Positions 3,622-64,000 of a stretch of DNA of 64,000 bases are shown piece after piece; position 1 is the stretch's first letter; each line of letters starts with the position of its first letter. Both the position numbers and the translations under genes were made by a program. Source of the stretch: Siniperca chuatsi (taxonomy: Eukaryota > Chordata > Actinopteri > Centrarchiformes > Sinipercidae); assembly GCF_020085105.1 (NCBI RefSeq), contig NC_058064.1, forward strand, positions 18,111,823-18,175,822, read 5' to 3'. The notes under the pieces were generated by a model. It worked only from the letters and a program-made list of their open reading frames with translations, made no database searches and had not been told where the DNA came from.

Positions 3622-5452
3622 CTAATGTGATGGATGGGCGCTGTGCGCGGAGCAAAGCAGGTCCACTCTAGGTTCAATTTTGGAGATCGCCACCCGCAGA
3701 TCATCTTCCACGTTAAGCCGTGACCAGTGTTTATTCTTAATGTAAGTCAGCGCGGAGAATGTCTTTTCGCATAAATACGTTGAGCCAAATTGCATGAGTA
3801 CATCCAACGCAGCTTTTGACAACTGTGGATATTCCAGCGCGACAGAAACCCAGAACTCATCCAGAGTCTTGCCGTCAAATGTCGTCCTCAGGGTTCAATC
3901 GGTTGAAAGTTCTATCAGCGCATCTTCCATATCTGACGCCAGATGAGTTGCCGTGGTTACATTGAATGGTGACCTTATCCAGTCATATTGGTCGGGAGCG
4001 TCTCCTTCAGGGAAATACTTATGAAAGTGATCCAAAAGGGACTGAAGGTGAGCAGTAATAGACGCCTTGATGCTGTTAACACTGAGTGCATTTTCCTCCA
4101 TGAATTCTTCCAGTTCAGAAAACATGTCTATGCATCCCATTTCCACTCTCTCTCTCCCTTTCTCGCAAATGCCTGCACTTTATCATTAAGGTACAAGATG
4201 TTTGTGTTTTCACCTTGCAGGGACACATTAAGTCCGTTGAGTTTTTCAAAAATACATGACAAATATGCCAGTCTTGTCACCCAGTCAGGATCAGACAGAT
4301 GCTCAGCAAGTGGGGATCTTCTCAGCACATTTCCGCGAGACAGCCACCTGACTTCTGTGTGCAGGAGCAGGCCTTTGTGCTCTGATCCCATTTCATTACA
4401 GAGAGTCGTGTGTTCAGTGGACGTGATTTTATGTAATTAACAATCTTCACAGCAGTGTCAAGAACATGTTTAAACTCTGCATTCAGGGTTTTGCATGCGA
4501 GGGCTTCTCTGTGTATGATGCAGTGCGTGAAACTGAGGTGAGGTGCAACTTGGAGGACTCGTGCCTTTAGTCCTTTCTTTTTTCCCAGCATTGCCCCAAC
4601 TCCGTCTGTGCACACTAATATGCACTCTCCCCAAAATAGTCCTTCATCTTTAAGTTTGCTGTCCAGTTTATTGAAAATGTCCTCACCCGTGCATGATCCC
4701 TCCAGTTGCGTACAAAATAACATTTCCTCATTTAGTTTCCCCTCAAAAATATATCTAACAAATACAAGGAGTTGAGCGGTGCTGGACACGTCTGTGGATT
4801 CATCCAGTTGTAAGGCGTACCTCCCACTCTTCTTCACTCTGTCAATCAGTTGACACTTGATATCCTGAGCCATTTCTGTAATGCGGCGGGATACAGTCCC
4901 ATCAGAGAGCGGCACTTGTTCCAGCTCAGCGGCCAGTTTATCTCCATGCATGAAGCGACTCATAACTATTGCTGCTGGTTTGATTAAAGTTACTCCAATG
5001 GTGTGTGGCTTTTTGGTCTATGCAATAAAATATGCCACCTCATATGAAGCCCTCTGAGCTTTAGTGGGGATAGTTGTTTGTTTAATAAGGACTTTCTTTT
5101 GTCCCTGTAACTCTTTCTCCTTTCTGCAGAAAAAGTCAGTGGGTTTATCTGTGAGGCTTGGGTGTTTGGTGTTCAGGTGTCTTTGCATTTTCACGGGCTT
5201 CAGACTCTCATGTGCGAGGACTTTGGAGCACACAACGCATTGAGGGTGTTGTACCTGATTTATAACAATGCACGTGAAACCATAGTTTATGTATTCCTCT
5301 CTGTATTTTCTGGCTTTCGAGGAGGGATGGTCCGTTTGCGGGGCATGGGTTTGGCGGGCTGCCCTTCCAGAGGTGGAGGGTAGTCCTGGCGGCTCATCCT
5401 CTTCTCTGCCCTCTGCATTTTTTGCTGATCCCGCTCTCTCATCAGCAGGCAT
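3622..5452 (-). pseudogene. ZBED/hAT-type transposase relic (ZBED5-like)
   Basis: Reading down the minus strand the pieces are: a BED-type zinc-finger region (5452-5018, with C-x2-C and H-x4-H), the hAT catalytic core (4963-4322, with 'ALQLDESTDVSS', 'CTDGVGAMLG' and 'THCIIHREALA'), a middle part (4391-3895) and the C-terminal hAT dimerisation region (3822-3622, 'SALTYIKNKHWSRLNVEDDL'). The pieces are separated by two in-frame stops (about 5018 and 3895) and two frameshifts (about 4390 and 4140), and there are no introns. It is a decayed copy of a hAT transposase of the kind domesticated as ZBED5 in mammals; these disruptions argue against a working gene here. Confidence 0.85.
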
Positions 5453-5696
5453 CTCTGCTCCCTTCTCTTTTTTCTGTTCTGCAATTTCATGGGTAGTGCT
5501 CCAGCTGCATCTACTTTGAAACTGATTTTATATGAAAAATAGTGTGAAATGTGTAAAAAGAATTCAGGTCAGTCTTTTAAAAAAATATATTGTTTATTAT
5601 TATTGTATATTATTACAGTGAACTGTCTGTATGATTAACATAAACACACTCACAGATGGTGTTCCAAACAATTTATTGCAGCCGTAGTTGTTCATA

Positions 5697-28624: not shown

Positions 28625-31600
28625 TCAGAATTCCTCAAGTCTTTCTGCACTAGCTGACCGAGAAATGAGTTCTTGCAGACCCTTCACCATGCAAATAGTG
28701 ACAGAGCAGTCATCCTCCTCCATCCCAAACCCGGGGTACAGAGGCTCAGTGAAGGTGCTGTAGAATGTGTGAAGGTGGCTGAGGGTCCCAGAGGAGACGC
28801 TGTAGAAGGACAGGGTGCCGCCCGGCCAGTCCAGATACACTCCCACCCTGTGGGAGCGAGACGGAGGTGCTGGTATTTCCACAGGCTGGTGGTCGTGCTG
28901 AGCACTGTAGTGATCCTCAGAGCAGTACAGACTCCAGGACTGGTCTGTGTAACCAAACCCACAGAGGTGAGAGCCCGCCCTGCGGCGGATCCCCCTCATC
29001 GCCACGGCGACGTCCACCCAGCGTCCTCGCCACTCCACCTCCCAGTAGTGGCGTTGGGTGAGGCCTTGGTGACACAGCACCTGGGAGACGCTCTCGAACC
29101 TATCGGGGTGATCTGGGTACTGCTGGTTCTCCCTGACCCACGTCACCTGCTTCCCACTGTCGTACAGAAAGAGAGACTTGGCGGCTGTGTTTGTGTCCAA
29201 CGTCAGCGTACATGCATCTGTACAAAACACAGATATGGCTATTTCAGTGTTGTTTATAAACATTATTTTTATTTCATAACAATGATGAGGTCCATTGTAA
29301 TGTGCTTTGGTGGTGCATATAATATTAATTAATTAATATGCAATTCATTTAAGTCAAAACTGCCACACAACTGTTCCAGTGCTTTCAGGACCCTGACCTG
29401 TGCCTAATCTAAACAAATAGACACGGACAGAAAGACAGACCGACAGAAAGAAAGAAAGAAGGCTTGGGAAAGTTGTAGCCATTTACCAATAAGACAGAAA
29501 GAAAGGAAGTAAGAAAGATGAGAAATACAGAATCCACACTGTCAGTTTCAAATAGATCTCTATCCTGCCATCTGTTGGACAAACGACACTACAACATGCA
29601 AAAGCAAAAAAACAAGTGAAAAGGCTGAAAGATGGCAGCATGCATATGACACATTTATATATGCGCACAATCAAAACTAAAACTAAACTCAGATGGCAGA
29701 TGGAAGAAATCATTCAAAACAAAACCTAACTTTTTTAAGCAAAAGGTTTTGCTTTGTCAATTCAAAGATCCTTTTAGAGGCTTGATTAAATGTTGAAAGA
29801 GGAATTTGTAAATATGACACAGATTCATACATTATTTTTAATAATCAGAATCATTTATTTGATTCAAAGATTTTGTATTTAAAAGAGTCTTGTTGCTAAA
29901 ATTCTATTCAGCAGGCATACAGTTGTGACATTGCAGGTACATAGCCTGATCCTTGGCCTGCTGCTGCCAACAACTACAAAGCTTTTGTGTATCTTCTTCT
30001 GCCCACATTACAGATAGTTGCTGTTTGGTTCAATTAAATGAGTGAAAATAATGTAAATAGAAAATACATCACTTACAGTTTTTCAGTGTTGATTTCAAGT
30101 AGCACTCTGCATTATAGTCCACACTGTAGACAGAATGATATATATACAAATATTAATCATTAATAGACACATTATGACATTTTAGAATACTTTATATCTG
30201 TCTTTTGTAACCAAATCATACATGTAATATATGTTTTGCATGTATGAAAAATTTGATTGTATGTGCTGTAGAGCACGTGAACATGTTGCGCCTTGCTTCC
30301 TCTGAATATTGTGCTTTCTGTTCTCTGTAGTTAATCATGTGTGCAGCACATGTGCTTCTGCTCTAAAACAAACTTTGCCAGATAACTGCATGGCAATACA
30401 CACCCTAATAAAGGGACCTTGATCATTAAATGAAACATTAAACCACAAGACATGTTGCATATTTAAAGGAATACTCATCTTAACAAGGCATGTGGTATAA
30501 TAATAGTGTTTATTTTCAAGAATTTTCCTGAATCTCTTCTTGGTATTTTTGGTCAACTGTGTTGTTGATACTAGAGAACAAATAGTACCAGGAGAGATTT
30601 AAACCCGTAATCCAAAGACACAAAATTATTAGCTGTGATGGATTGTTTTACCTGAATTTTTCCAGTTTACAGAGCGGGTCGTTCCAATGAACAGAGATCA
30701 GCTTCACTCCAGAGTCCTGCAGGTAGTTGTAGCTGAGGTCCAGCTGCCTCAGGTGAGAAGGGTTGGAGCGCAGGGCTGAAGCCAAATAAGTGCAGTCTTT
30801 CTCAGTGACTCCACAGAATGACAGCCTGTGTGGATAGGTATTCACATTTTATCTAAAAACACAATATTTGCCTTTTCATGTTGTGTATTTGATAAAGACT
30901 TTCCAAAAATAAGACCAAAAATCTCCAACCCTTTTCTATTTATTTACCTTAAATATCTAGGTGTTTCTGTGTCTTTATTGTGCAGAAATAGTTTTTACTT
31001 TCATATTATTATAGTATTACTTACTTGCATATTGGCTGCTATAGAAAGTAAAGATTATGTTACTTTGAATGTAAAGCCAGCTTACCTTAACGTCTCCAGT
31101 TTACAGCTCGGACTCGCCAGTCCAACAGAGAGCAGCTCCACTTCTGAGTCCTGCAGGTCGTTCCCACTCAGATCAAGCTCCTTCAGGTGACCGGCGTCAG
31201 AGCTGAGGACTGAGGCCAAATCAGCACAGCATTTCTGGAGATTGCACTCGTTTAACCTGCAGGTGAGGATATGCTTAGTTTCAGTGGGACTATATTAAGA
31301 AGTGGTACCCAACAAAGTTTAAAATTATCTGAGACTTGTTGAACTGATGCCAAACAAATTGAAAGTGCATGTAATAGTGTGTCATTACATTAATATAAGC
31401 CACTATATTATTTGTTGTGTCCACTGAACCTGCGTGACCTGACCTTAATGTCTCCAGTTTACAGTGTGGACTACTCAGTCCAGCACAGAGCTGCTGTATG
31501 TCTGGACCCTGCAGGTTGTTTCCACTCAGGTCCAGCTCTCTGAGGTGGGCAGAGTCAGAGCTGAGAGCTGAGCCGATGTGATTGCAGCATTTCTGTGTAA

Positions 31601-34600
31601 GGCCACACCAGCTGAGCCTGACAGGTGAAAGAAATTTTCAAATGATGTACAGCACACTACATGTGACATAGTGATGATAAACACATGATCAGTCCACACT
31701 AAAATACTTCACAAACATCACATATGGCTGCACATTAGTGGTAAAAAATTGTGTTGTAATTATTTGGTTGTAATTGAACCTATATTCATTGATTTTTTGG
31801 GGGGCAGCGCAACAAGGTCTAAACACAACACTGACATCATTTTTTAAAGTCGATATGGCAAACATGTTAGCAAACAGTTGCCTATTTACCCATTTAGCAT
31901 AGAACATTAGCATTCATTTGGAGTTGTGTTTCTGTCTCCATGGTGAATGTAAGTCCAATATTAATTCTCTTTTTAGCACTGCTTTGTTCCACACTAACTC
32001 CTGAGCGAAATAGCTGTCTCTTTAGTCGCCAAATGCTCCACTATTTTCACCAGCTAGTTGCTAATTTGGTTGCCTGTTGTTTGGTGCTGGGCAGGTATGT
32101 GTATAATGGTTTTATCAGAGTTTTTACAGCTGATGAAAGCGGTGAGAGTAAACCAAAACAGTAAAGTTGCAGGCTGTAAAACCAAAACGATTAACTGAAA
32201 GAGGCCTACAAGTTCTGCAGAGCGGAGGGAAACTGCAGAGTTGGGTGATAATTCTTTGTGGATGAGCAAACCCTTTCACATGTTAACATGAAAATAGAAA
32301 TTAGTGCAGCTTTAAAGCTGCATTAATCAGTATTCTTTATATTAATATTACATCAAATGTGATAAGTGTAGTGAAGTGTAATATGAAAGGGTTTACTCAT
32401 AGTGACACACAATTACAACCTAAATTCACAGCTCTACAGAGGTTTTTAGCATGTTTTAGCAGAGTATTTTGGTGATCTGCACATTCATTGTATGGTTCAG
32501 TCTTACTGCTCTCATTATTTATGTTTGCAGCACCAGTAGTGCAGCTGTTTTCAGCAAACAAGCTCTGACAAACACTGTACTGTACACTTTACCAGCCCAG
32601 CACCTAATGTTAGTTTTCTCAGAAGTTGGTGGAAAAAAAACAGAGCTAAAAGGAAATAGTGTAGCTAAGACAATCACAGTCACAATTTTCATTTCAGAGG
32701 ACTGCACTGACCTTAATGTTTCCAGTCTACAGTGTGGATTACTTAGTCCAGCAGTAAGCAGAGATACACCAGAATCCTTTAGGCTGTTGTTGCTCAGGTC
32801 AAGAGTTTTCAGGTGGGATGTGCCTGAACTCAAAACTGTAGCCAAATCTGCACAGCAATTCTCTTTGAGCTTGCACTGATTCAGCCTGCAAAAGAGTATT
32901 CACCAAAACAACAGGATTTGTTTTCTTAAAAACATGAATTGTGATTAAATTCAAGTCCAAGCAAGTGATTTAAGTTTGTCAGCAAGAAGAAGGTCTGACC
33001 TAACTGTTTCTAGTTTGCAGTGGTGGCTGCGCAGTCCCACACACAGAGCCTTCACTCCTGCTTCCTGGAAGTCATTAGCACTTAGGTCCAGTTCTCTGAG
33101 TCGGGTAGAGTCTGTGCTGAGAGCAACAGCCAGTGCTTCACAGCAGTCTCCTTCCAGTTTACACTTATGTAATCTAAAAAAGGAGAAAGCTTTTAATGTT
33201 CTGAACGGAAAAACAGCATGTGGATTGTATATCATTCAAGAGCAAATTATGACAACAGCAGTGAACCTAAACCACAAGTCTTTAACCACAAGAAGTAAAT
33301 GCTGCTGTTTGCAGGGTTGTATTGTGCAATATTTGGTTTCTAAAAGACTAACAATTGTTACAGACCTTAAATTCTTTAGTTTACAATGTGGACTCCCTAA
33401 TCCAACAGAAAGTAGCTTCACCCCTGAGTCCTTCAGCTTGTTGTCACTCAGGTCCAGCTCTGTCAGGTGAGAGGAGGATGAGCTCAGCGCAGAGGCCAGA
33501 ACTTCACAGCAGAGCTCAGTGAGGTTGCAGCGATTAAGCCTAGAAAAACGATACATAAACAAGAAATTTCTGTTTGTTAATTTTTTTTTCATTATGGGAT
33601 GAGAAGGTGCTCAGGCCAACATCCAAGAATAGCTGCAGTATTACAGAGAAATTTGTTTGCGGCTTAGAGAGCAACTAAAACCAACATGCATGAGGAACAC
33701 TATTATCAAGTGGGTAAACTCACAGAGCACGTGTGGAGGAAGTAATGACGGTCAGCAGCTTCACTACCCCTTCTTCTGATCTTATGTACTTCTTCAAGTC
33801 GAACTCCTCCTCTGTTGCCTCTGATGTCATAAGTTCAAAAGTGAGAGCAGACCACTGGACCGGAGACAGCTTTTTAGCTGCAAGCCTCCCAGAACTCATA
33901 AAGCTCTGGACCTCCTGCACCAAAGACTCCTCTTTGAGCTCACTCAGACAGTGGAACAGGTTGAGCTTGGCCTCTGGTTCCTCTTTGATCTTCTCCTTAA
34001 TAAACTGGATGGTTTTCACCACATCCTCCTCTCCTTCTGCTTCTAAACACAGTATTCTACCCAGGAGCTCCTGGTTTGACTTCAGCGACAGTCCCAGGAG
34101 AAAGCGAAGGAAGAGGTCCCAGTGGCCGTCTCGACTCTCCAAGGCTTTTTCGATGGCAGTCTTGTGAAAACTGAACACAGACTTGGGGAGCCATCTTGTA
34201 GATATTCTTTTCAGGTATCCAAGAAGAACATTTTCTTTTCTTTGCATGTAGGAGTGATGGGCATACACAGCTGCCAGAAACTCCTGGATGGTTAAATGTA
34301 CAAAGCTAAAAACTTCTTTCGTCCTTCTGCCCTCCACCATGAAGACCTCTGTACAAACTCCTGAGTAAATGGTTGCCTCTTTGACATCCATGCCACACTC
34401 TTTCAAGTCAGCCTCGTAGAAGATCAGTTTGCCTTTCTCCAGTTGACGGAACGCCAGCTCTGCTAGCTTCAAAACAACATTGTTGCTTTCCATCGGGTAG
34501 TGCCCTTCTATCATCCGGTCTGTCTGGCAGAGAAGGAGATACGTGTACATCTCGGTCAGGGTGTAGGGCATGCCTCCTGTCACATTGTCGCGCAACATTT

Positions 34601-35988
34601 TCTTCATTACAGTGACTGTGATCCAGCAGAAAACTGGTATCTGACACATGATGTAGAGGCTTCTTGATGACTTCACATGGTTGATGATCCTCATGGCGAG
34701 GTTATCATCATGCAAACGTCTCTTAAAGTATTCCTCCCTCTGTTCATTAGCAAAGCCCTTCACCTCTGTCCACTGGTGGATGTACTTTCGAGGGACCCGG
34801 CTAGCTGCGGCAGGTCTGGATGTGATCCAGATGAGAGCCTTGCCGAGCAGATCTCCCGTGATGAGGTTGGTGATCAGCACATCTAGCGAGGCCGGCTCCG
34901 TCTCATCTCTCAAAACCTTGTTGTGCTTGAAGTTCAAGGGGAGGAGAGTCTCGTCCAGGCCATCAAAGATGAAGAGGACTTTGCATTCTCTTCCCAGCGT
35001 CTCAAGAGGTTTCATCTCAGGGAAGAACTGATGGAGCAGCTGCATCAGACTGTAGTCCTTTTCTCCTATGTTGGGATTCAGTTCACGGAAAGGAAGCGGG
35101 AAGAGGAAGGTGATGTCCTGATTTTCCTCTCCTTCTGCCCAACTCAGGGTAAACTTCTGTGCACAGACAGTTTTACCCACTCCGGGTATACCCTGCGTAA
35201 GCACAGTTCTGATTCGCTTCTCTTGGTTGGGCTTTGGTTTGAAAATGTCGCTAGCTTTAATGGAGGTTTCTTCTGTTGTCACTTGGTTGTACCTCTGCTG
35301 TCTGACCTCGTGATCCTCACTGAAGCCTCCCCAGGCTCCTTCGATCACATGCAGCTCAGTGTAGATTTTGTTCAGGTAGACGCTGTCTCCTTCATCTGCA
35401 TTACCCTCGTAAATGTTTTGGTACTTTTCCTTCAGGGTGGATCTCAGTTTTTCTCTGATTACATGGTGGTCGATTTCTGTTCAAAGAATAAATAAAGCAA
35501 TTCAACCTTTACTCTTGTGTCTGTAAATGGATATAGTATGAGTTTGAAATTGTCAACATGACTGTGTGTGTGGGTGTCTTTTAACCTTCTTACCTTTGCC
35601 TACTTGATTGCTTGAAACTGATAAAGAAACAAAGAGACAGGTGTTACATGGCCAAGCTCTTTTGTCTTACAAACTAACTAAACAGTCAAATCTTGTACTT
35701 TTTAAACATGATTTTACCTTCATCGTACTTCTTCTTTAGTGTTTCAGCCCACAGTTTGAGTTTCATCCTCATCAGTATATCCACTGTGACTGTAACAGCA
35801 CCGTCGTAGCCATATGTCTGCACCAAAAGATCCACAGAGCCCAGCCTGTCTACCCCATCGATCCGAGACTTTGGAATATGAGGGAATCCTTCAAGAACAT
35901 TACTGTAAAGGAACCACTGGAAAATCCTTAGCTCTTTATCAACCAGCTCCTCCAAAGTGGCCAAGAGCAGCTCTGGGACACAAGCCAT
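28625..35988 (-). CDS. NLR immune sensor: PYD-FISNA-NACHT-LRR-B30.2
   Basis: Eleven exons: 35988-35718 (pyrin domain, '[20 protein letters not shown]'), a 24-nt exon near 35623-35600, 35476-33724 (FISNA plus NACHT), six LRR exons starting at 33539, 33173, 32885, 31617, 31256 and 30825 (174 nt each except one of 171), a 47-nt linker (30123-30077) and the B30.2 exon 29217-28625. All phases match and the total is 1242 residues without a stop. Walker A is GIPGVGKT at about residues 194-201, Walker B FIFDGLDE at about 267-274. LRRs have the ribonuclease-inhibitor form ('[19 protein letters not shown]'). The layout is that of the expanded fish NLR-C / NLRP3-like sensors; the pyrin domain suggests signalling through ASC. 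The ligand is unknown. Confidence 0.92.
31850..32300. repeat. Dispersed repeat, copy 2 of 3
   Basis: Matches 15560-16060 over most of its length; lies in the intron between LRR exons 3 and 4 of the NLR gene. Confidence 0.75.
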
Positions 35989-38515: not shown

Positions 38516-44664
<6,149 letters not shown>

Positions 44665-45432
44665 GAAGACTCAAGTTCAATACGACACAGTCAGTCATAA
44701 CCAGGGCTGTGTGTCACTGCGCGGTGGCGTTAGTCGGTTGCCTATTGTATGGCACTGTGGAATACGTAAGACAGTGTTCAGGAGCATGAAATTGGCCAAA
44801 TGTAAGCCTAAACAAGTGAAAAAGTATTAAGGCAGAAATTAAACACAAGAACACATTTAGTCCATAAATATCAGAATACTTTGTAAAAAAACAAAAAAAC
44901 AAACAAAAACAAAAACTACACCTAAAGGCTTTAAAAACAGAAAAAATAAAAAAGACTGGAAAAAAAATGGCACAAATCCAGAAAAAATAAACTTTATGAA
45001 ACCACCGAAGAAAGCCAAAAACACAGAAGAAGACACCAAACACATATGAAAATTGTAGTTCTTTTTCCAGAGGGCAGAGCGCATTGTTGTTTTGGGGAGT
45101 ACAGGGTAAATATTATCCAGCAGGTGGCGGTAACAACCTAACAACAAGAAAAATGTCACCTGCCATAAAATATAAACAGAGAAGAAGAAGCCTCTGACAA
45201 CAAATCAATTGCCCCATGTAACTGCTTGCTTTATTTTTTTATACGTTTAATTTGACTACTTCTCTTATTTAGAGGAGAAGTTTTGTAGTTTCAGTTGGAT
45301 AGTTACCTCAATCCAATTTTTGTCACCCTGTAACGGCTAATACTAGTCAAGTGTGGCTGGGTGGGTGGGTAGCTAGCTGGCTAACTGCAGCTAACCACAG
45401 CTAATCAAATTTTTCAACACCGGTGTGAGAAG
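44665..45432. promoter_or_regulatory. Divergent promoter region, SELENOO / TIN2-like zinc-finger gene
   Basis: About 770 bp separate the two start codons on opposite strands. No CpG-rich core stands out; the middle (44870-45020) is A-rich low complexity and 45355-45410 has GTGGGTGG and CTAGCTGG repeats. A shared promoter is an inference from spacing only. Confidence 0.4.
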
Positions 45433-48400: not shown

Positions 48401-51400
48401 CAATGTCTCAGTTTTGCCTAAGCTATAATTCAAAGTAAAACAGACATAATGTTGTTGAACATTATTGGGTAGTGATATATCTTACAGATGTTTAACCTGC
48501 AAATCTGATGTCTTGGTATCCTACTTTTGAAGTTGAAATCTTTTGATTATATTGGATTTGACGTGATGTGTGTTTTCATACATTTCCCACAGACTGTCTC
48601 CTGGCTTGGAGCTGAATGCTCTGTGTTGGAGGATTGTGTGCATTTAGTCTCTGAGCCTACAGACCTGAAAAATTTACTCCAGCACCACAAACACCTTGGG
48701 CATTTAGATCAACATGGTAAGTCACTTCCCATAACCACATCTATATTATTCCACTTTCATCGTTGAAGACTGGACTCTATGACAATAACTTATGTGTTAT
48801 TCTTGGCCTTTTTTGTGCAGTTCCACCTTCTGGCATGGGCGACAGCATCCTCTCCTCCCTCTCTGCAGTTTCCCCTAGCAAAGTGGCAAAACCTACAGAA
48901 GAACCCAACCAGTCAGATCCACTGCAAGGCCTCAGTGATGACACACACACTGTATCATTCGTGGATGATGTAGCAGTTGAAATAATCACAGTGACAGATT
49001 ACGCAGAGGTTGAATTGGGCGCAAGCACCGACATCGAGGTGGTGATGGGAGAAAATTGCTTTGAGGGAACAGACACTAGCACAGTGGCTGAAGATTCGCT
49101 TGTAGTGCTTCCTGATGAGACAACCAGGGAAGAAGAAGTAGGTGGAGCAGGGGAAGAAGCAACACAAGAAAAAGCTGCAAGTGGTTTGCCAAACATCCTC
49201 CTTCCAAAAGTTAACAAGGACGACTTAGCGTCCTCTCAACACAAAATCTCTATGGGACCTCATGACTGCCCAGACTGTGAGAAGAAATTTAAGTTTGCCT
49301 CTTCGCTAATCGCCCACAGGGTCATCCACACTGGTGAACGCCCCCACCGGTGCAATGACTGTGGTCGCTGCTTCTCTTTCAGGCAGTCCCTCGACAGGCA
49401 CAGACGCACGCACAAAACTGGACGCAAGTACGACTGCGTTATCTGCGGGGAGACCTTCCACTCCTTGTCAGCCCGCACAGAGCACAAGCAAACACACATG
49501 GAAGATGGTGTTTACACGTGTTGTCAGTGCAACAAGAAATTTAACTGGGAGCTGGCACTTGCAAGGCACCTGAAAATTCACACTGATGATCACAACGCAA
49601 ACAAGCTCACAGAGAGCCATAAGGATGGGCAAGAGGTTGTCATATGTGATGAAAATGTCAGCGCTGCACTTGCTGGACCCGACAGCCATGCGGATGATAA
49701 TGGTGACCGCGATCCAGAGAATGCAGATGTTCAGAGCAGTGAGCGTCCCACCTCTGAGCCTGAAGGCAGGATCCCTGAACTTGACAATGAAGACATTTCC
49801 CAGGTGAAGGTCCGCACAAGTGGGCGCAAACGCAAACCAACCATGAAGATCCAGGTGATAAATTTACAGAAGTGCATGACCACTAAAAGAAGGAAGGAGG
49901 TCACTGTGGCGAACCCTCCAGAGCTAAAGCCTTTGCCTTTCAATTGGTAAATCCATCTGTCCTCATTAACCACTTTTGATCTGTTCTTGTCTCACAAATG
50001 GTTTCCTTCATTTCTGTTTTTGTCATCCTTGGTTTATTACATGTTTAGTACATAGAAATATAATGTACTATATTATGTTCAGTTGAATATATGGTGGCTG
50101 TGGTGGGACATCAGTGCCTCATGTTTATTTTTCCTTTCTTGTCAACAGTGCAGAACACTCTTATGGGTCCTCCATGGTCTCATCAAAAGACGGTGATGAA
50201 AGTGAGTGTTCATCTTTAGAAATATAATTTTTTTGATCTTTCTCACCACAATTACATAACCAGAGAGATACGAGAACGTGGACTACAGTATACGTTACAT
50301 AAAAAAAAATCAAGGCATCTGAAAATCTGATAAATTGTAAATTACAGGCCAGAAATTAACTAATAATTACCACGTACTTTGTCCATAAAATATTAACAAT
50401 TTGTTTGAAAAAAGTTGGAAATGTTCCTTCTGTAATCATTTTTATTACATATTTTTATGAAATCGTTAGCATCAAGATAGTAAAAAGTCTTTATCTTAAA
50501 GTCTTTATAAAGTTTATCTTGAATGACTAATGGCCAAGTTGGGCCTTGAATGCTTTGACAGGCAGCTTTATTTGATTATACTGGGATGTATGGGATGTAT
50601 ATTTAATATTGGAACTTATCAATTATCTCAGAATTTTTCAAGTAGAGCTGAAACAATTAATTAATTACTTGATCGACAAAAACTATTATAAATTAGTCAT
50701 TATTTTGATCAAATAATCGTTTCAGTCATTTTTCAAGCATCAATGCCAAACATCACATTCTTTTGTTCTAGCTTCTCAAATGAGAGGATTTGCTGCTTTT
50801 CTTTGTCAAATATTTTAGTAAATTGAATATCTTTAGTTTTTGGACAGTTGGTCAGACAAAACAAGCAATTTATTAAATGTGTTGCCTTGAGCTCTGAGAA
50901 ATTATATTTGGTATTTTTTACTATTTTTGACATTTTATAGACAAAACAGTTAATTGATCAATCAAGAAAATAATTGGCAGATGAATCGATAATGTAAATG
51001 TTAGTTGCAGCGCTATTTTCAGTATTATGTAATATTTGTGAATACTTAATTATATAAAAATTGCTTACAATAAAATAAGTGTAAAAGTATTTCAAGGCAA
51101 CAGTTGAATAAGCCAAGTCCGTATCAGAGAAAAGAAACCAAGTGGCAACAGCTTGTTTACAATAGTTGCACATTTTCCTGCCGATATGATAGTTTCATAT
51201 TGAGCAAATGTGTCATTACAGGTCAGCGTTTTTTAAAAACTTATTTTTCTAGCAAAATTTCCAACTTCTTTCAAACAATTTGTTTGCAATTAAATTTTAG
51301 TTATGGACAAACATACAAGTAATTGTTCCTTTTCCAACCTGTAATTTGCATGGTTACTGAAAATCCTTTTAATGGCTCTTACAAACATAAAAGTCTGAAA

Positions 51401-55704: not shown

Positions 55705-58700
55705 ACTTGAACTCGCTCTGACAGCAAACACACCTCGCAGACACACAACACGCACACACAACAGCACACGCGCCGCTGGAAAAACAGAAGAGGAATTTAA
55801 GTGAAGGGGTTTTGTCTGAAACTGTTAAGTGTCAAATGCTACAACAACATGCAAGACTTTTACAAAAGGTTCTCAACTGTGCCATTAAGGCCAGAGAATC
55901 TGCAGGTTTTTACTGTGGTCAATTCATCAATTACGCAATTATTACAAGTCACTTGTCAAAGGAAATGGCCCACATTTACTGTTTCCATCTTCTCAAATGT
56001 CACGATTTGTTGCTTTTCTCGTTTTGTGCCATTGTAAATAGAATTTATTTTGGGTTTGTACTGTTGGTCAGACAAAACAAGCAATTTGAAGAGATCGCCC
56101 TGGGTTCTGGGAAATAGTGATGGGCATTTAAATCTGGCATTTTATAGACTGAACAACTGTCGACAAATTATTAATAATTCCAATTCAGCATATTTTGAGT
56201 TTTCAGTCATCAACACATCTCCATGCAGAGTCACTCAGAAAACCAGTGCATGTAAAAACAATCCAAGAACGATAAATCTTAGTTATAATACGTATCTGAA
56301 ATTAGCCAATATCGGCTGATGTATCAGTCTATTTTCATTTTTACGGCTAATACTTGGAAATAGGCAAGTGTGAAAACTTAAATGTGTACTAACACTCATA
56401 TAGATGCATATCAGCACCAGTATCGGCCTATCGGATGTTAGCCGAACTACGATGCCTCCCCTCTTGCAAGAAATATTAGTTCATTTCTGAGTAACGTTAC
56501 CTGCATAGCCTCATGTTACAAAATGTCTCAGTTATACACGTACGCATTTGTTTTACAAGTGGTGCTTGTCAGCCTGAGGTAAATTAAGTTTCTGAAAGCT
56601 TAAATAAATTCTCTGACAAAGGGGAAGTACGCTGAGCGTTTATTTTGATGCAAGTCGTTGATGTGGAAGATAGAAAAGCACACTACATGCAAAATACGAA
56701 TGAATTTGTTACCCGCTGGATGCAAAATTAACAGCATGCATGGAGAAGACGTACAACCAACAACAGAAGAAGTTTTTTTTTCTGTTTTCACGCGTTACAC
56801 AACAGGTTTAATAGCAAGCTATGCTAACGCTAGCGTTTCCTCTGTGACAAAGAGCTCAGAGCCAGCAGCGGACGGCCTGCACTGAGAATGAATGAAGAAT
56901 AACCAGCCAGCTACTAAATCGCTTCCTACACCGCTTATTTGATTAATCAACAAATGCAAATGTTAAATAACGCTAGAGTTATTTCAACCAGCTACACGTT
57001 TCAGGAAAAGGAGATGCAAATAATCTTACTTTCTCACTTCCACAACAGGATGCAAAGACCAGTCTGTGCTGCTACACAGTCACTCCCCCTAAAGACACTC
57101 ACTCACACGCGCACACATACACAAAGCACAGTAAAGATTTCTGACCATGTGCTTGGTGCTTGCTGTACGTAGAGACTGTCTAAACGCATGCCTGATAAAA
57201 ATGACAAAAACCCCTCTAAATTTGTATTCCTCATTTTGAAAAATTGATTAACATACACAACACTGGTAGCTATAACGTACATTACATTATCCTGATATGT
57301 TGCTTAAGTAAAACATTATTTAGACAAAGCTTTTTGGTGAGGCCATCTCTACAGCTGTCAGTGTTTGGGACCCCCGAGCTTTATATGGAGTAGTTGAGTT
57401 GCAAAAGTTAGTCGAGGCAGTAAAATCATTAGTTTAAAAGTTGAACTGTCACGAATTTGGATTAATGTGAACTACCGAACGAAAGTGAAAAGCTAGGTAT
57501 ACCCATTTTGTTATTCAATGCAGCGTTAAGCTAGTTTTACGACGACAGTATGCTGTCACTGCTAGCATAGCAGCTATACAGGATGCTTTATTTTGATTTT
57601 TCTAAATATGAACAGTATGTATGTATGTATGTATGTTAAATATAATGTGGCATTATGTAGGTTAATTATGTATCGGGAGGGCTACTGTATAGTCTAATTT
57701 AGTATCTCCTTACATGTCGCATTTTCCATCTGTTTTAAATTTAAAAGTACGGTTTAAAATTTGAATTTTGACAGTTAAATGTCCGCATGCTTATCACCGA
57801 AACCTTACAAAATATAAATACCCAGTTAGGATAAACTTAAATAATTAACCAAAAAGCTCTTTCTTTGGGAAAATCAAATTGTAAGGTTGGTCTCGCTCTG
57901 CTGTGGAAGCCCATTTCAGCCAGGAAAAAAAAGAGGAGTTATGATTAAAATATAAATAGTCTTGGTAAATAAGAATTAAGTGATACTAGATTAAAGTCAT
58001 TAATTAATATAAGTTAAAATTTTGACTTTGTGGCAAATAGGAAATGTTGGCACAGTAAGTTAAAAAACATTGACTTAGAAAGTTGAAAATTATGAGAATT
58101 GAAATTTTAACATAGCATTTCATAATTTGTCTATGTCAATATTTTGACATACCGATACACTCCAGCGATTTAATAATGCACTTCTACAGAATTAGGGGAC
58201 TTACAAGAAACAGATATAAAAAAGACCTTGAGAGCTTGAGATATTCTGACTTTTAGTCTCAAGTATAAGTGTTAGTCTCTATGACCCTAGGTCACTAAAC
58301 TGGACATTAAGCATTACATCTCTGCCATACTTGAATAATTGTGCAATATTCTGTGTACTACTCCCCTGTAATATTTAGTTTTCCCATGTTAGTTTTTCCT
58401 ATTTATTGATATTGATATTATATACCTCCATTACTGCTGTGCAATATCTTAATTATCTCAATAAGCTACACTTAACTCGACAGTACGTGCACCACTACTT
58501 ATTACTTATATTATTACATTATATTATTATACTGTATTATCATCATCAACTGGTAAACCCACTTACTACTTCACACTTATTTTATCTTATACTTATACCC
58601 ACCTGGTACTTAATTTATTTTCTGACCTGTTTTATAGTGTATTGTATTATATTTTTTGCTAGTACTTTCTCCTGTGTGCACTGACGTAAAGGCGAGCTGC

Positions 58701-59238
58701 TGTAACAAAGAGTTTCCCTTCGGGGATCAATAAAGTATTTCTGATTCTGATTCTGAAGTCAAGCCTCAAAAACACTTGATCCTGCATTTCCTTTAATGCA
58801 TCTCAGTAGCCTTCTTTCATTTGACCTATCCTGCCTGGTAAATGCCCATATCTTTCATACTATGCATCCAAAGCTTGCCAACCCTTTTGATTTTCCTGCC
58901 CCTCTCCCCACTCCTGGAGTTTTGATTCCCCCCGTAGAAATGCACGTCTGGTGTGAAAAGCCAGGCTACTGCTTGCGTGAGAGTTGATATATTGGGGTGC
59001 TTCCGCCTCCTGTCTGAACCCTGCGTTATGCTCTAGTCTGGCCAATACATTTTTTTTTGTATGGTTCATTTTCTGCATATCTTTAAATTACAAAGAGGTA
59101 TATTTTAAATTAAATAGAAGTGTCTTTAAAAGGTGGACACATTAGAAACTGTAAATGAGCAGAGACACCAATGAATAGTGAGACACATTAGTTAAGGGAA
59201 TATCAACAAATGACATTTATTTCATTCATTTAATTATC
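55705..59238. other. Intergenic region upstream of APEX1
   Basis: No gene seen. It contains the likely APEX1 promoter just above 55704, a diverged MITE segment (55880-56160), a small (GTAT)n tract at 57618-57637 and, at 58680-58757, 'ccttcggggatcaataaagt' followed by TTCTGA repeats, the form of a fish LINE 3' tail. Short frames here look accidental. Confidence 0.5.
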
Positions 59239-62149
59239 TCATGAAGACTGAACAGTGACATGCATGTTATGTGGGTTTATCCATCTTCTGAAATGCAGTC
59301 CATTTTGCTCTCTTTGGTGAGAGGGTCTGAAGCGACGGCAAGCTGGCGTGCTGTCCATTTTTCGTCCAGTTTTTCCCCTTTTGTCAAAGAATGACCTGTA
59401 TAAGGAGAATTTATTCTACAAATTCAATAAACTATAAAGCAACAACACTCAAAGGACAAGTTCCTGAGTCACACAGCTTGAAAATCAAAACCAAACCTGA
59501 GAATGAAAACATTCCAGATTCCATTTCATGTAACAAACATCAAAGTGTTAAGTTGAAACTTCCTGATAATGGCAGAGCCATCACGCTTAAAAATGTATTG
59601 TGGACCAGTTCTAAAGACATTTTGTGGCAAACTGCAAAAACAAATGAATCTCAAGTGTTTGTGTGCTGCTATAAAATAACGTACCTGCGTCTCTCAGTAG
59701 GAGACAGTAGTTCACACTTCTCATTTGTTCTCCTTCCTCTCCAGGTCTTTTTCACGTCATGAACAGGGTATTCTGGGTGTCTGCACAGATAATAGATTGT
59801 TTAAACTCTAATCCCTGTAATAAAGACAAATTATTTTTAAAAAATTGAACCCAAGAGAACCTACCGGCATTCCTCTGCACCCTGTGTAGGATTTCCTTTG
59901 CCTCTCCTGTTTCTTCTTCCTGCTCTGTTTTTTCGTTGTGGGATGACAACCAAAGATTTGTCGTCTCTGTTTGTCTGCTCTCCACTTAGGTCCACTCTTC
60001 TCTTTCTGTCTAGATGGAGGCTGTCTGGGCTTTTGCATAAAGATGAAAAGTTGTTTTAATCTCCAGAATCTTAATGCAAACAGTAAATCATCAGTACAAA
60101 GAAGTGATATAACACTTACCTTCTGATGTTGGCCGGATTAACAGCCTTCCATTTCCTTTTATTCAGAGGTCTTTGTTGGGCTTCCAAGCCTTCTATCAGA
60201 TTCCGCTTGACTCTTGTGGGCTTTCCACCGGTGCCCTTGGAGCATTTGGTGGGACTGGGACTCCTCATAGGGATATCCATCTTCTCTTGGGCCTCCGGTG
60301 AAATCCTCAGTGGCAACGTCTGCTGGACTCTGACAGATTCCCCCACAGCCCTGGAGCGACCAGTACTAAAGCTCCTCACACAGGGAGCCTCCTTCTCTTT
60401 GGCCTCAGGTGTATTCACTCTTATCTTTTTGTATGGACAGAGTCTGTCTGGCCTACTGCATAACGATGAAAAGTTGTTTGAATCTCCAGAATCTTAACGC
60501 CAACAGTAAATCATCAGTACAGAGAAGTGATATAACACTTACCTTCTAATACCAGCTGGATTAACAGCCTCCAATGTCCTTTTATAGGAAGGTCTTTGTT
60601 GTGCCTTCGGCTTTCTTTGAGCCTCCACAACTGTGGTCCACCAGAGTCTGGCATCTTTTATTAGAGTCTGCTTGACTCTGGTGGACTCCCCGCCGGTGCC
60701 CTTGGAGCATTTGGCGGGACTGGGACTCCTCATAGGGATATCCATCTTCTCTTGGGCCTCCAGTGGAATCCTCAGCGGCAACGTCTGCTGGACTCTGACG
60801 GATTCCCCAACGGCCCTGGAGCGACCAGTACTAAAGCTCCTCACACAGGGAGCCTCCTTCTCTTTGGCCTCAGGTGTATTTCTGTCTGTCACAGACAGAA
60901 CGACTCGGTTTGGCTGCTCTCCACTTAGGTCCACTCTTCTCCTTTTTCTGTCTGGGCCGACGCTGACTGGCCTTTTGCATAACGATGAGAAGTTGTTTGA
61001 ATCTCCAGAATCTTAACGCCAACAGTAAATCATCAGTACAGAGAAGTGATATAACACTTACCTTCTAATACCAGCTGGATTAACAGCCTCCAATTTCCTT
61101 TTATAGGAAGGTCTTTGTTGGGCCTTCGACTTTCTTTGAGCCTCCACAACTGTGGTCCACCAGAGTCTGGCATCTTTTATTAGAGTCAGCTTAACTCTGG
61201 TGGACTCCCCGCCGGTGCCCTTGGAGCATTTGGCGGGACTGGGACTCCTCATAGGGATATCCATCTTCTCTTGGGCCTCCAGTGGAATCCTCAGCGGCAA
61301 CGTCTGCTGGACTCTGACGGATTCCCCAACGGCCCTAGAGCGACCAGTACTAAAGCTCCTCACACAGGGAGCCTCCTTCTCTTTGGCCTCAGGTGTATCC
61401 ACTCTTATCTTTTTGTCTGGACGGAGGCTGTCTGGACTACTGCATAACGATGAGAAGTTGTTTGAATCTCCAGAATCTTAACGCCAACAGTAAATTATCA
61501 GTACAGAGAAGTGATATAACACTTACCTTCTAATACCAGCTGGATTAACAGCCTCCAATTTCCTTTTATAGGAAGGTCTTTGTTGTGCCTTCGGCTTTCT
61601 TTGAGCCTCCACAACTGTGGTCCACCAGAGTCTGGCATCTTTTATTAGAGTCTGCTTGACTCTGGTGGACTCCCCGCCGGTGCCCTTGGAGCATTTGGCG
61701 GGACTGGGACTCCTCATAGGGATATCCATCTTCTCTTGGGCCTCCGGTGGAATCCTCAGCGGCAAAGTCTGCTGGACTCTGACGGATTCCCCAACGGCCC
61801 TAGAGCGACCAGTACTAAAGCTCCTCACACAGGGAGCCTCCTTCTCTTTGGCCTCAGGTGTATTTCTGTCTGTCACAGACAGAACGACTTGGTTTGGCTG
61901 CTCTCCACTTAGGTCCACTTTTCTCATTTTTCTGTCTGGACCGAAGCTGACTGGCCTTTTGCATAACGATGAAAAGTTGTTTTAATCTTCAGAATCTTAA
62001 CGCCAACAGTAAATCATCAGTACAGAGAAGTGATCTAACACTTACCCTCTAATACCAGCTGGATTAACAGCTTCCCATTTCCTTTTATAAGGTCTTTGTT
62101 TTGGCCAGTCAAGTGGTCGTGTTTTCTCACTAATTGTTAGTCTGGCCAT
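59239..62149 (-). CDS. Unrecognised basic repeat protein made by tandem exon duplication
   Basis: I do not recognise this family. Eight coding exons: 62149-62046, 61955-61527, 61439-61062, 60971-60543, 60455-60120, 60029-59865, 59780-59685 and 59395-59239, every intron in phase 2, giving 697 residues without a stop and AATAAA about 20 nt after the TGA. Exons 2-5 are repeats carrying 'TPEAKEKEAPCVRSFSTGRS', 'EKMDIPMRSPSPAKCSKGTG' and, at the end, 'KRKLEAVNPAGIRR'. Exon 1 has only the unit's end, exon 6 only its beginning. The protein is Lys/Arg- and Ser/Pro-rich with SPSPAK motifs, has no signal peptide or membrane span, and looks disordered; a chromatin or nuclear role is a guess. The ATG is in a strong context (GAGGCCATGG). 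Confidence 0.75.
59865..61955. repeat. 984-bp dimeric exon/intron tandem duplication
   Basis: Exon starts 61955 and 60971 are 984 bp apart, as are 61439 and 60455. Intron lengths run 90, 87, 90, 87, 90. Exons 2 and 4 are both 429 nt and nearly identical; exons 3 (378 nt) and 5 (336 nt) differ mainly by a 42-nt deletion. The unit is therefore a pair of exons with their introns, itself derived from an older single-exon duplication. Confidence 0.9.
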
Positions 62150-63657
62150 GGCCTCCTCGTCACCTATGTAATACTAAATGAGCAAATAATTGGATACATG
62201 TTTAGACCATCTGTTGTTTTTAACTGCCAGAAACAAGATATGTACACCTAAATAACACTTATATGATTTAAGTGTTATTTAGTTTAATCAAAGAATAATC
62301 AAAGCACTTCTGTGTACTATTAATAAACATGGTAAAAATAGTAATTTATAGAAATGTTACTCCTACTGATTTCAACTAAAGTGTTATCTTTCTTAATTTA
62401 AATTCCTAATCACATCCTGCCTGTCAAGCAACTTTGTACATTATTTGTCAGCATGTAGAAATGGCTGATGGGAAGCAACTAATTACTTGTGTGTCTGTTT
62501 ATTTGTTTTCCTGCTTAGATTAATAGGTCAGTGGGCTCTAGATTAGATGGCAGTACCTAAAAGAACCTAAGCATTTAGATAGCTACATATTTACATTGTA
62601 AGCAGCAGTTTCTAATTACTTTTACCTTTTGAGAAAAGTTTGTGCTAGAATAAATCAACACATTTAATCAACTTACCATGCCGTCACTTGGCCTCTGCGA
62701 GGTGCTGAAGCTTGTAGTAAAAAATATTTTGTTGAAAATGTAAACAGTTGAACACTGGATGTCTCTTTGCGTCTGCACTCAAAGTGTGAAGATAATTGAA
62801 ATGATCTACAGAGCTCATATGTTCTCAAATGTAGAATCCTGTTGAGTTTTATTCCAGAACCATAAAGGTGTCATTATGATGGATGGAACCTTCCAAACAA
62901 TGGGCTGACTTGAGCTCTATGACTCATAAAATAATAATTAAAGGTGTATTATCATATCAACACAAACTTACATCTATATACAACCTTCAGAGACACAAGT
63001 TATTTGTCGTTATTGAACATACTTGAACATGATTTCACTTCATATCAAATAAACACTCTTTAAAGTGTTTAAACAGGAATTTTCCTCATCAGAAATGTCA
63101 AATAAGAAAAAATAAAACAAAAACAAAACAGTTGCTGCTAAAACAGTTAATTATTTACATTTTTCACTATAGCATCTCTTTATATTCTTATACTAATGAC
63201 CAACAGTTGTACCTCCCAGTAAAGCTGAGAGAATATGCAACAGTACATATAAAAAGTGGAAACAGCCCACAGTTTAGCCTACCATGCCATCTTGCTGCTG
63301 ACTGCTCCTTTTTGTCACGTTGCTGCCACCTGTGTTGACTGGACCAGTGGAGCTGGCAATGACTAATATTTATGTTTTAAGTCAGTCCAGTACCCCTTTA
63401 ATTTCTCATAATTTTGACTTGGTATGTTAGAATTTTGAGTATTGTTATTTTTTATCATGCCTAACTTTTTGTGGTTCTTTTTTTTTTTGGCGCAAATGGG
63501 CTTCCAAGAAAAATGAAGTAATTGAAGGGAAATATGCTTTAAAACTGATACTGTATGCCTGTAAAAATAAGCTTCTTGCCTTCCATGCAAAGACAGAATG
63601 CATTAGTCTTCACTGCATATTGCTTTCCTCTTTCCTAAAAATTGTTTTTTAGCTGCC
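62150..63657. other. Region between the repeat gene and OSGEP
   Basis: Holds a probable noncoding first exon of the repeat gene ending at the donor 62677 (CATG|gtaagt) and the OSGEP promoter/5' UTR, whose acceptor is at about 63652. The rest is A/T-rich with no frame of note. The T run at 63478-63489 is low complexity. Confidence 0.5.
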
Positions 63658-64000
63658 ATGACTATAGTAATTGGATTTGAGGGCAGTGCCAATAAGATTG
63701 GCATAGGAATCATCAGGGATGGTGAAGTGCTTTCCAACCCTAGACGGACCTACATTACCCCACCTGGTCAAGGCAAGTCACATTTCTGCTAAAGGATTAA
63801 TCACCTTAAGTCACCTTCACTTCACTGGTGATATGTCAAAGTCGAACAATCTCTTGCATGTTAAGTTGAGAACATGTTGTTTTACCCATCAGGGTTCATG
63901 CCGAGTGACACCGCCAGGCACCACCGTGCTGTCATACTGACTGTCCTCAAGGAGGCGCTGGAGCAAGCAGGGCTGAAGCCTGCAGACATCGACTGTGTGG
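63658..64000 (+). CDS. osgep: tRNA N6-threonylcarbamoyladenosine synthase OSGEP, 5' part
   Basis: Exon 1 (63658-63772) encodes '[20 protein letters not shown]' and '[10 protein letters not shown]'; exon 2 starts at 63893 ('[20 protein letters not shown]') and runs off the window. This is the ASKHA-fold N-terminus of OSGEP/Kae1, catalytic subunit of the KEOPS complex that makes t6A at tRNA position 37; the metal-binding His pair is HH in 'ARHHR' or further on, beyond what can be judged here. The intron uses a GC donor (AAG|gcaagt) with a normal AG acceptor. The gene lies divergent from the repeat gene and, beyond it, APEX1. Confidence 0.95.

Follow-up and report, generated by a model that had tools for sequence, protein, structure and literature searches.

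What kind of gene lies on the minus strand between APEX1 and OSGEP in Siniperca chuatsi, and where did it come from? The stretch analysed here, called the window throughout, is 64,000 nucleotides (nt) long (C23:18111823-18175822). Eight minus-strand exons in it give one open frame with phase 2 at all seven junctions, and the lengths of exons 2-7 are all divisible by three. A previous reading of the letters alone (the sequence-only reading) had described an unrecognised gene of eight exons, all with phase-2 junctions, encoding 697 residues, with duplicated exons in its middle. The structure was borne out, the length holding when CAG acceptors are taken at exons 3 and 5 and the duplication being visible as copies of both exon and intron. 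The word "unrecognised" survived only in part: the product falls into no Pfam family, but a DNA relative, a HIPK-like gene on contig C9, was found in the same genome, so that the gene now has a lead. On balance, we think that it is probably a protein-coding, kinase-less derivative of a HIPK-like gene with amplified tail exons.

Kinship with a HIPK-like gene at the DNA level

All genome searches were made in the S. chuatsi assembly to which the window belongs (719 Mb, 65 contigs), and match counts in the DNA searches are lower bounds. The DNA search gave at least five matches, four in the window and one at C9:4355934-4356031 (76% over 98 nt, E 3.4e-9). The reciprocal search with the C9 tail gave at least six, five on C9 and one in the window (E 4.6e-12), and a direct DNA comparison of the window with C9 reached a best E of 3e-16. 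Introns and exon edges of the window gene are 71-77% identical to the introns of the C9 tail (ten matches; 505-623 and 1501-1629 of the C9 locus, L010). Similarity to the C9 gene extends to two stretches of intron 7, at 59664-59614 and 59583-59518 on the minus strand (80% over 55 and 75% over 72). The C9 tail contains short exons that start with AGTCCAGACAGC and end in ...ACAG|GTAGG, flanked by introns related to those of the window. Its units read R|SPDSRSPERKMSLLYDSKEAQIEAPSSEVKMKPRRKRTWVTFVASHSGN|R and R|SPDSSSPERKRRKMSLDEVETQ..., the window unit R|SPDSLRPDKKIRV...QRPSYKRKLEAVNPAGI|R; the phase is identical and the edges are alike. Moreover, the C9 gene's first-exon region is similar to positions 62760-62174 of the window (score 27; none of 300 resamples did as well, the highest reaching 22), and GTGAC..CATGGTAAGTTGATT is common to both regions. 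Introns, exon edges and the first-exon region all point to common descent of the two genes.

The exons upstream of the C9 tail encode a kinase. Pkinase rows were obtained for all five pieces, three of them above the curated cut-off, and the best of 239 PDB sequences (E up to 1e-15) for two joined kinase exons were HIPK3 (1.5e-41) and HIPK2 (6e-40). The frame of the kinase exon runs on into a tail exon (Y|VKSCCETMEVCQ...). Judged by its sequence, the C9 gene is a HIPK-like kinase with repeated tail exons.

With one HIPK-like kinase exon as the query, 22 genomic places matched (E up to 1e-10), and some of these lie in open frames of 642-807 residues; this suggests a sizeable HIPK-like family whose members are not all necessarily HIPK. 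In flatfishes, 14 HIPK-family genes are counted among the new genes in an excerpt of PMC8618825. The second-best match of the kinase exon is an intronless frame of 744 residues (L016 4324-6552; C24:4538823-4541051), with a kinase (3.6e-45), a basic SP-rich SPDSTSPVRKKRK tail and a weak GDSL/SGNH-like match at its C-terminus. Kinase and hydrolase-like match make an unusual combination. The C24 DNA matches the C9 exons one after another, with no introns between them, also ahead of a tail exon, and its tail match begins at a C9 exon edge; the frame is probably a retrocopy, made from a spliced transcript. If so, tail junctions of this type are used in the family, and it is the family that this inference concerns; for the window gene itself it is no evidence. 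With the C24 relative as a query, tblastn (E up to 1) recovered seven pieces on C9, six from the kinase and one from the tail, and no kinase match in the window or in L005. Pfam found no Pkinase in the window product.

Gene model, exon copies and predicted product

All exons of the window gene lie on the minus strand. Exon 1 (62046..62149, with an ATG at 62149) probably extends to 62173. The four full repeat exons come in a long and a short form: exons 2 (61527..61955) and 4 (60543..60971) are long, with 429 nt each, and exons 3 (61062..61439) and 5 (60120..60455) are short, with 378 and 336 nt from CAG, exon 5 being the most diverged. Exon 6 (59865..60029) repeats part of the long repeat exons at its 5' end; it is followed by exon 7 (59685..59780; acceptor 6.6 bits, donor 9.5 bits) and by exon 8 (59239..59395; acceptor 9.0 bits), which carries the stop codon, with an AATAAA (59221-59216) 17 nt 3' of the stop. 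At exons 3 and 5 the same CAGTAG offers two acceptors. The CAG form, from 61439 and 60455, gives a product of 697 residues whose sole stop is terminal, and the TAG form, from 61436 and 60452, one of 695. We prefer the 697-residue version, since a simple score rates CAG above TAG at both exons (8.1 and 8.6 bits, TAG having 3.1 and 6.0); the related C9 acceptors are also of the CAG form.

An additional first exon further upstream is likely. At 62677..62679 (minus) an ATG is directly followed by a GTAAGT donor, probably marking the end of the first coding exon, with the 5' untranslated region (UTR) upstream. This donor has 10.4 bits; counting it, six donors on the two strands of 55.7-63.66 kb exceed 10 bits. 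Joined to 62173 (4.2 bits), it gives the frame MYYIGDEEA-MARL... and a total of 706 residues. The alternative acceptor at 62163 scores higher than 62173 (6.5 bits); with it, the upstream ATG would run into a stop after nine codons and the ATG at 62149 would be left as the start.

The gene model exceeds chance expectation. Exon 2 (142 codons) was open in 0.2% of 4000 first-order Markov simulations, and exons 1, 6, 7 and 8 were open in 8, 16, 7 and 19% of such simulations; the product for these five exons, about 3e-7, is a guide value, as the splice model was picked afterwards. Twelve donors above 8 bits occur in 55.7-63.66 kb on both strands. Eleven are on the minus strand, and seven of the eleven belong to the model, the upstream exon included.

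The middle of the gene consists of tandem head-to-tail copies of exon and intron, and each of the four full repeat exons is 3n long with phase 2 at both ends. Donor spacing is 519, 465, 519 and 423. Long and short exons alternate because exons 3 and 5 are without 54 nt, in frame; from this alternation, and from exon 6, which starts like a long exon, it follows that the copied unit was a two-exon one of 984 bp. Exons 2 and 4 are alike at all but 9/426 sites. Exon 5 differs from the other repeat exons at 41-50/330 sites, with a further 42 nt absent in frame, and its divergence is uneven, about 20% in the 3' half and 5% against exon 3 in the 5' half. KRKW is found in exons 1 and 5, and KRKL or KRTL stands at this place in exons 2-4. 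There is also a nested repeat: exon 4 contains two copies, 117 nt apart, of a 43-nt stretch (77%, E 1e-5), and in the protein this repeat gives two RVxx[TN]L motifs per exon, which makes eight in the four exons. The first five introns (61956-62045, 61437-61526, 60972-61061, 60453-60542 and 60030-60119, minus strand) are 90 nt long each and near-identical, with 90.0-97.8% identity in ten pairs and 79 of 90 columns invariant.

The predicted product, in a 704-residue version, has an isoelectric point of 10.8, a net charge of +79 and a hydropathy of -1.04. Serine- or threonine-proline pairs (SP/TP) are in excess, 17 against 8.7 (P 0.003), and also when the repeats are left out (7 against 2.9, P 0.014). 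AlphaFold2, given repeat exon 3 with four copies, produced no confident fold (mean predicted local distance difference test score, pLDDT, 52.5; predicted template modelling score 0.15), and the sole helix (LTLIKDARLWWTTVVEAQR) falls in blocks of mean pLDDT 50-58. Pfam, searched with the full product and with an exon-skipped join, gave no family above its cut-off (best row 17.1 bits against a cut-off of 27); the exon-skipped join alone was compared with PDB sequences and gave three rows at E 0.79-0.97. Neither the repeat exon nor exons 6-8 had a match in IMG/VR, and bacterial and archaeal genomes gave nothing either; both are poor collections for a fish gene. Among short motifs, the exact D-box, KEN, LC8, RVxF and PxVxL patterns have no match in the product. 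A loose D-box-like pattern occurs four times against 1.2, but once against 0.66 without the repeats, and was set aside.

The setting between APEX1 and OSGEP

The neighbours had been named correctly: APEX1 was confirmed by PDB ("APEX nuclease 1", 2o3c, E 5e-105), and OSGEP by Pfam TsaD in three of four pieces (the N-terminal piece is without a Pfam match) and by PDB 6gwj_K (1.4e-30). The coding span of OSGEP, read from the frames, is about 63658-68617. Its exon with the start codon is at 63653..63772 on the plus strand, with the ATG 5 nt after an AG acceptor, and apparently ends in a GC donor (CAAG|GCAAGT, 63773-63774, plus).

That the gene is lodged between its two neighbours is probably wrong in detail. 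Candidate divergent first exons of APEX1 and OSGEP may be placed at 57030..57336, with minus donors at 57038 and 57030 (6.4 and 7.6 bits) and a plus donor at 57336 (7.5 bits), and the observed/expected ratio of CpG is 0.40-1.12 in 56251-57750 against 0.11-0.27 in 62501-63750. A bidirectional OSGEP/APEX promoter is described for human and mouse in the excerpt of PMC3121118, and stickleback osgep is placed at 25,499,574-25,509,648 and apex1 from 25,509,908, 260 bp apart, in that of PMC8549617. Given the CpG pattern, the divergent donors, the mammalian promoter and the stickleback coordinates, OSGEP probably starts near 57.3 kb. The window gene would then probably lie antisense within the first, 5'UTR intron of OSGEP, of about 6.3 kb. 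The excerpts of PMC8549617, PMC4481373, PMC7915175 (on osgepl1), PMC2670823 and PMC3121118 name no gene in the APEX1-OSGEP gap.

Several other features were seen in the window. Near the APEX1 start, 55983-56087 matches 50766-50871 (108 columns, 77%, E 8e-16), probably an old dispersed repeat. Two near-identical frames that look B30.2/SPRY-like by eye (121-798 and 28625-29332, minus) are 28.5 kb apart, the first without a short stretch. A FISNA-NACHT-NLRC4_HD2 exon was found by Pfam at 33720-35480 (minus), and frames at 31.3-33.6 kb look LRR-like by eye; a SelO exon is at 44227-44670 (minus; Pfam 7.5e-15). Reverse-transcriptase-like and hAT/ZBED-like frames, again by eye, are at 1013-2398 and 4322-5527 (minus).

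Origin of the gene, rival explanations and known systems

How could such a gene have arisen? A copy of a HIPK-like gene may have lost its kinase exons and retained its start and tail. The tail exon would then have acquired the nested 117-nt repeat and been amplified, exons 2-4 latest, by unequal exchange or conversion via the alike introns, every exon copy adding two motifs while frame and splicing stay intact. The product might be a nuclear protein, disordered, strongly basic, rich in SP/TP and bearing the eight RVxx[T/N]L motifs, though we hold this step less firmly; with low confidence, it could compete with the kinase-bearing HIPK relatives, share partners with them or be phosphorylated by them. 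The fullest version of this idea is speculative and, taken as a whole, unlikely. It would have a kinase-shed gene inside the OSGEP 5'UTR intron encode a multivalent basic nuclear protein, its motif number rising by ongoing exon copying via homogenised introns, which, having no kinase, would compete with its kinase relatives or be their substrate, and would vary in copy number among fish species, perhaps among individuals.

The sequence-only reading had taken the intact frame of every repeat copy as a sign of selection. This argument is weak because copies 2-4 are too alike: when the same changes were placed at random, a stop-free outcome was reached in 50-89% of runs for exons 2-4 and in 30-43% for exon 5. 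What stands of it is exon 5, which shows a modest constraint. Its comparison with exons 2, 3 and 4 gives synonymous rates (dS) of 0.28-0.34, nonsynonymous rates (dN) of 0.10-0.13 and dN/dS of 0.34-0.39, and amino-acid changes fall below random placement (P 0.008-0.03; 0.008, 0.029 with 0.035 in a second run, and 0.009 for the three exons), in tests that are not independent, exon 5 being in each.

A number of results weigh against a coding derivative of a HIPK-like gene. It is introns and exon edges, not protein, that tie the window gene to HIPK-like tails: tblastn of the window product on the C9 locus was not significant (best E 0.36), genome protein searches with the window exons missed C9 and recovered the window locus only (four matches with the repeat exon, among six scored candidates; three of three with exons 6-8), and a protein search with a C9 unit did not recover the window. 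In the phase-2 frame, one C9 tail unit, at L010 1388-1502, is interrupted by a stop, and the C9 tail may thus have decayed in part. The acceptors of exons 2, 4 and 6 are weak (3.4, 2.9 and 3.5 bits), as is that of the OSGEP start exon (3.3 bits). Exons 2-4 show no measurable constraint (dN/dS 0.55-0.68, P 0.18-0.58), and for the pair of exons 3 and 5 the other five frames have P 0.095-0.925, a mild contrast with the true frame. Codon usage, trained on 1929 codons from six exons of window genes, lends the frame no support: it scores -0.018, where noncoding sequence averages 0.014. After correction for amino acids, all six frames are above the noncoding null (mean -0.21), but the three antisense frames (0.134, 0.045 and 0.123) and one other sense frame (0.046) all score higher than the gene's own sense frame (0.004); GC content at third codon positions is 0.50 against 0.63. 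The product does not exceed its shuffles in nuclear-signal patterns (4 against 2.9, P 0.32) or in full CDK sites (4 against 1.9, P 0.13). Finally, in the older pairs introns have diverged less than the exon flanks, at junctions 1 and 5 (6/90 against 29/121, P 0.0007) as at junctions 3 and 5 (6/90 against 21/121, P 0.02), and either conversion or constraint on the introns is needed.

Much of this would suit a decaying or non-coding HIPK-like fragment, one with its kinase gone and its tail repeats drifting, where only the youth of the copies keeps the frame open. The missing codon bias, the unconstrained exons 2-4, introns at least as conserved as exons, the weak acceptors and plus-strand frames across the repeats that are likewise open (113-131 residues) would all be expected of it. 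However, exons 1, 6, 7 and 8 join in one phase at GT-AG sites, with the AATAAA close behind the stop, exon 5 shows signs of constraint, and the strong donors stand on one strand and in order; we regard such decay as a serious but unlikely alternative. Another reading is that the locus is a host gene for small RNAs, with the alike introns as its functional part. The introns are less diverged than their flanks and can be aligned to C9, and four of the five 90-nt introns contain TGATGA, which we take to be a C-box-like motif. On the other hand, Rfam gave a single weak row at 59000-63660 (E up to 1), over exon 4 (WT1-AS_5, E 0.76), and shuffled sequences fold just as well as the introns (z -0.86 to 0.32), which makes this reading very improbable. 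A mobile element is harder still to believe, even though there are repeats and one related locus elsewhere. The many-copy transposon or satellite that the sequence-only reading had named as evidence against a gene did not appear in the genome searches, where C9 was the only other place found (counts are lower bounds, and exon 1 was not searched alone).

The order of events could also have been the reverse, with a free-standing tail gene coming first and the C9 gene being a HIPK-like kinase fused to such a tail. The intron-bearing tail was seen only in C9 and in the window in the genome DNA searches, and human HIPKs are not known to have such tail exons, which counts in favour of a fusion. Yet a fusion at the tail leaves the first-exon region common to both genes unexplained, and we think this order rather improbable. 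We give equally little credence to a gene such as we propose but independent of OSGEP, whose start would then be to its right. The plus-strand donors are weak, with one above 8 bits in 55.7-63.66 kb, which agrees with it, but the CpG pattern, the stickleback annotation and the mammalian shared promoter do not.

If a kinase-less HIPK-like derivative is indeed expressed here, a signalling-enzyme gene would have turned into a repeat protein, the enzyme being dropped and its disordered tail kept and multiplied. As the introns are better kept than the exons, its ancestry can be read from introns while protein searches fail, and other "orphan" genes may be traceable in the same way. It would also place a third gene in a classic vertebrate pair with a shared promoter.

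Among known systems, the closest are HIPK and the fish HIPK-like genes. The window gene is like the HIPK-like gene of the same genome in introns, exon edges and first-exon region; it differs in being without a kinase domain and in its tail exons, which have been amplified and are of far greater length. It is well known that symmetrical exons of animal genes can be duplicated in tandem (the subject of PMC2394523). Here, too, exon and intron have been copied head to tail with the frame kept, whereas two length classes, a two-exon higher-order unit and a product predicted to be disordered set the window gene apart. The divergent pair of APEX1 and OSGEP is the same as that with a bidirectional promoter in human and mouse (PMC3121118, excerpt), but here the start codons are 8 kb apart with another gene in the gap. 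The window gene would also resemble the nested intronic genes that are the subject of PMC3933685 and PMC2151771 in lying inside an intron of another gene, the host intron being in our case a probable one.

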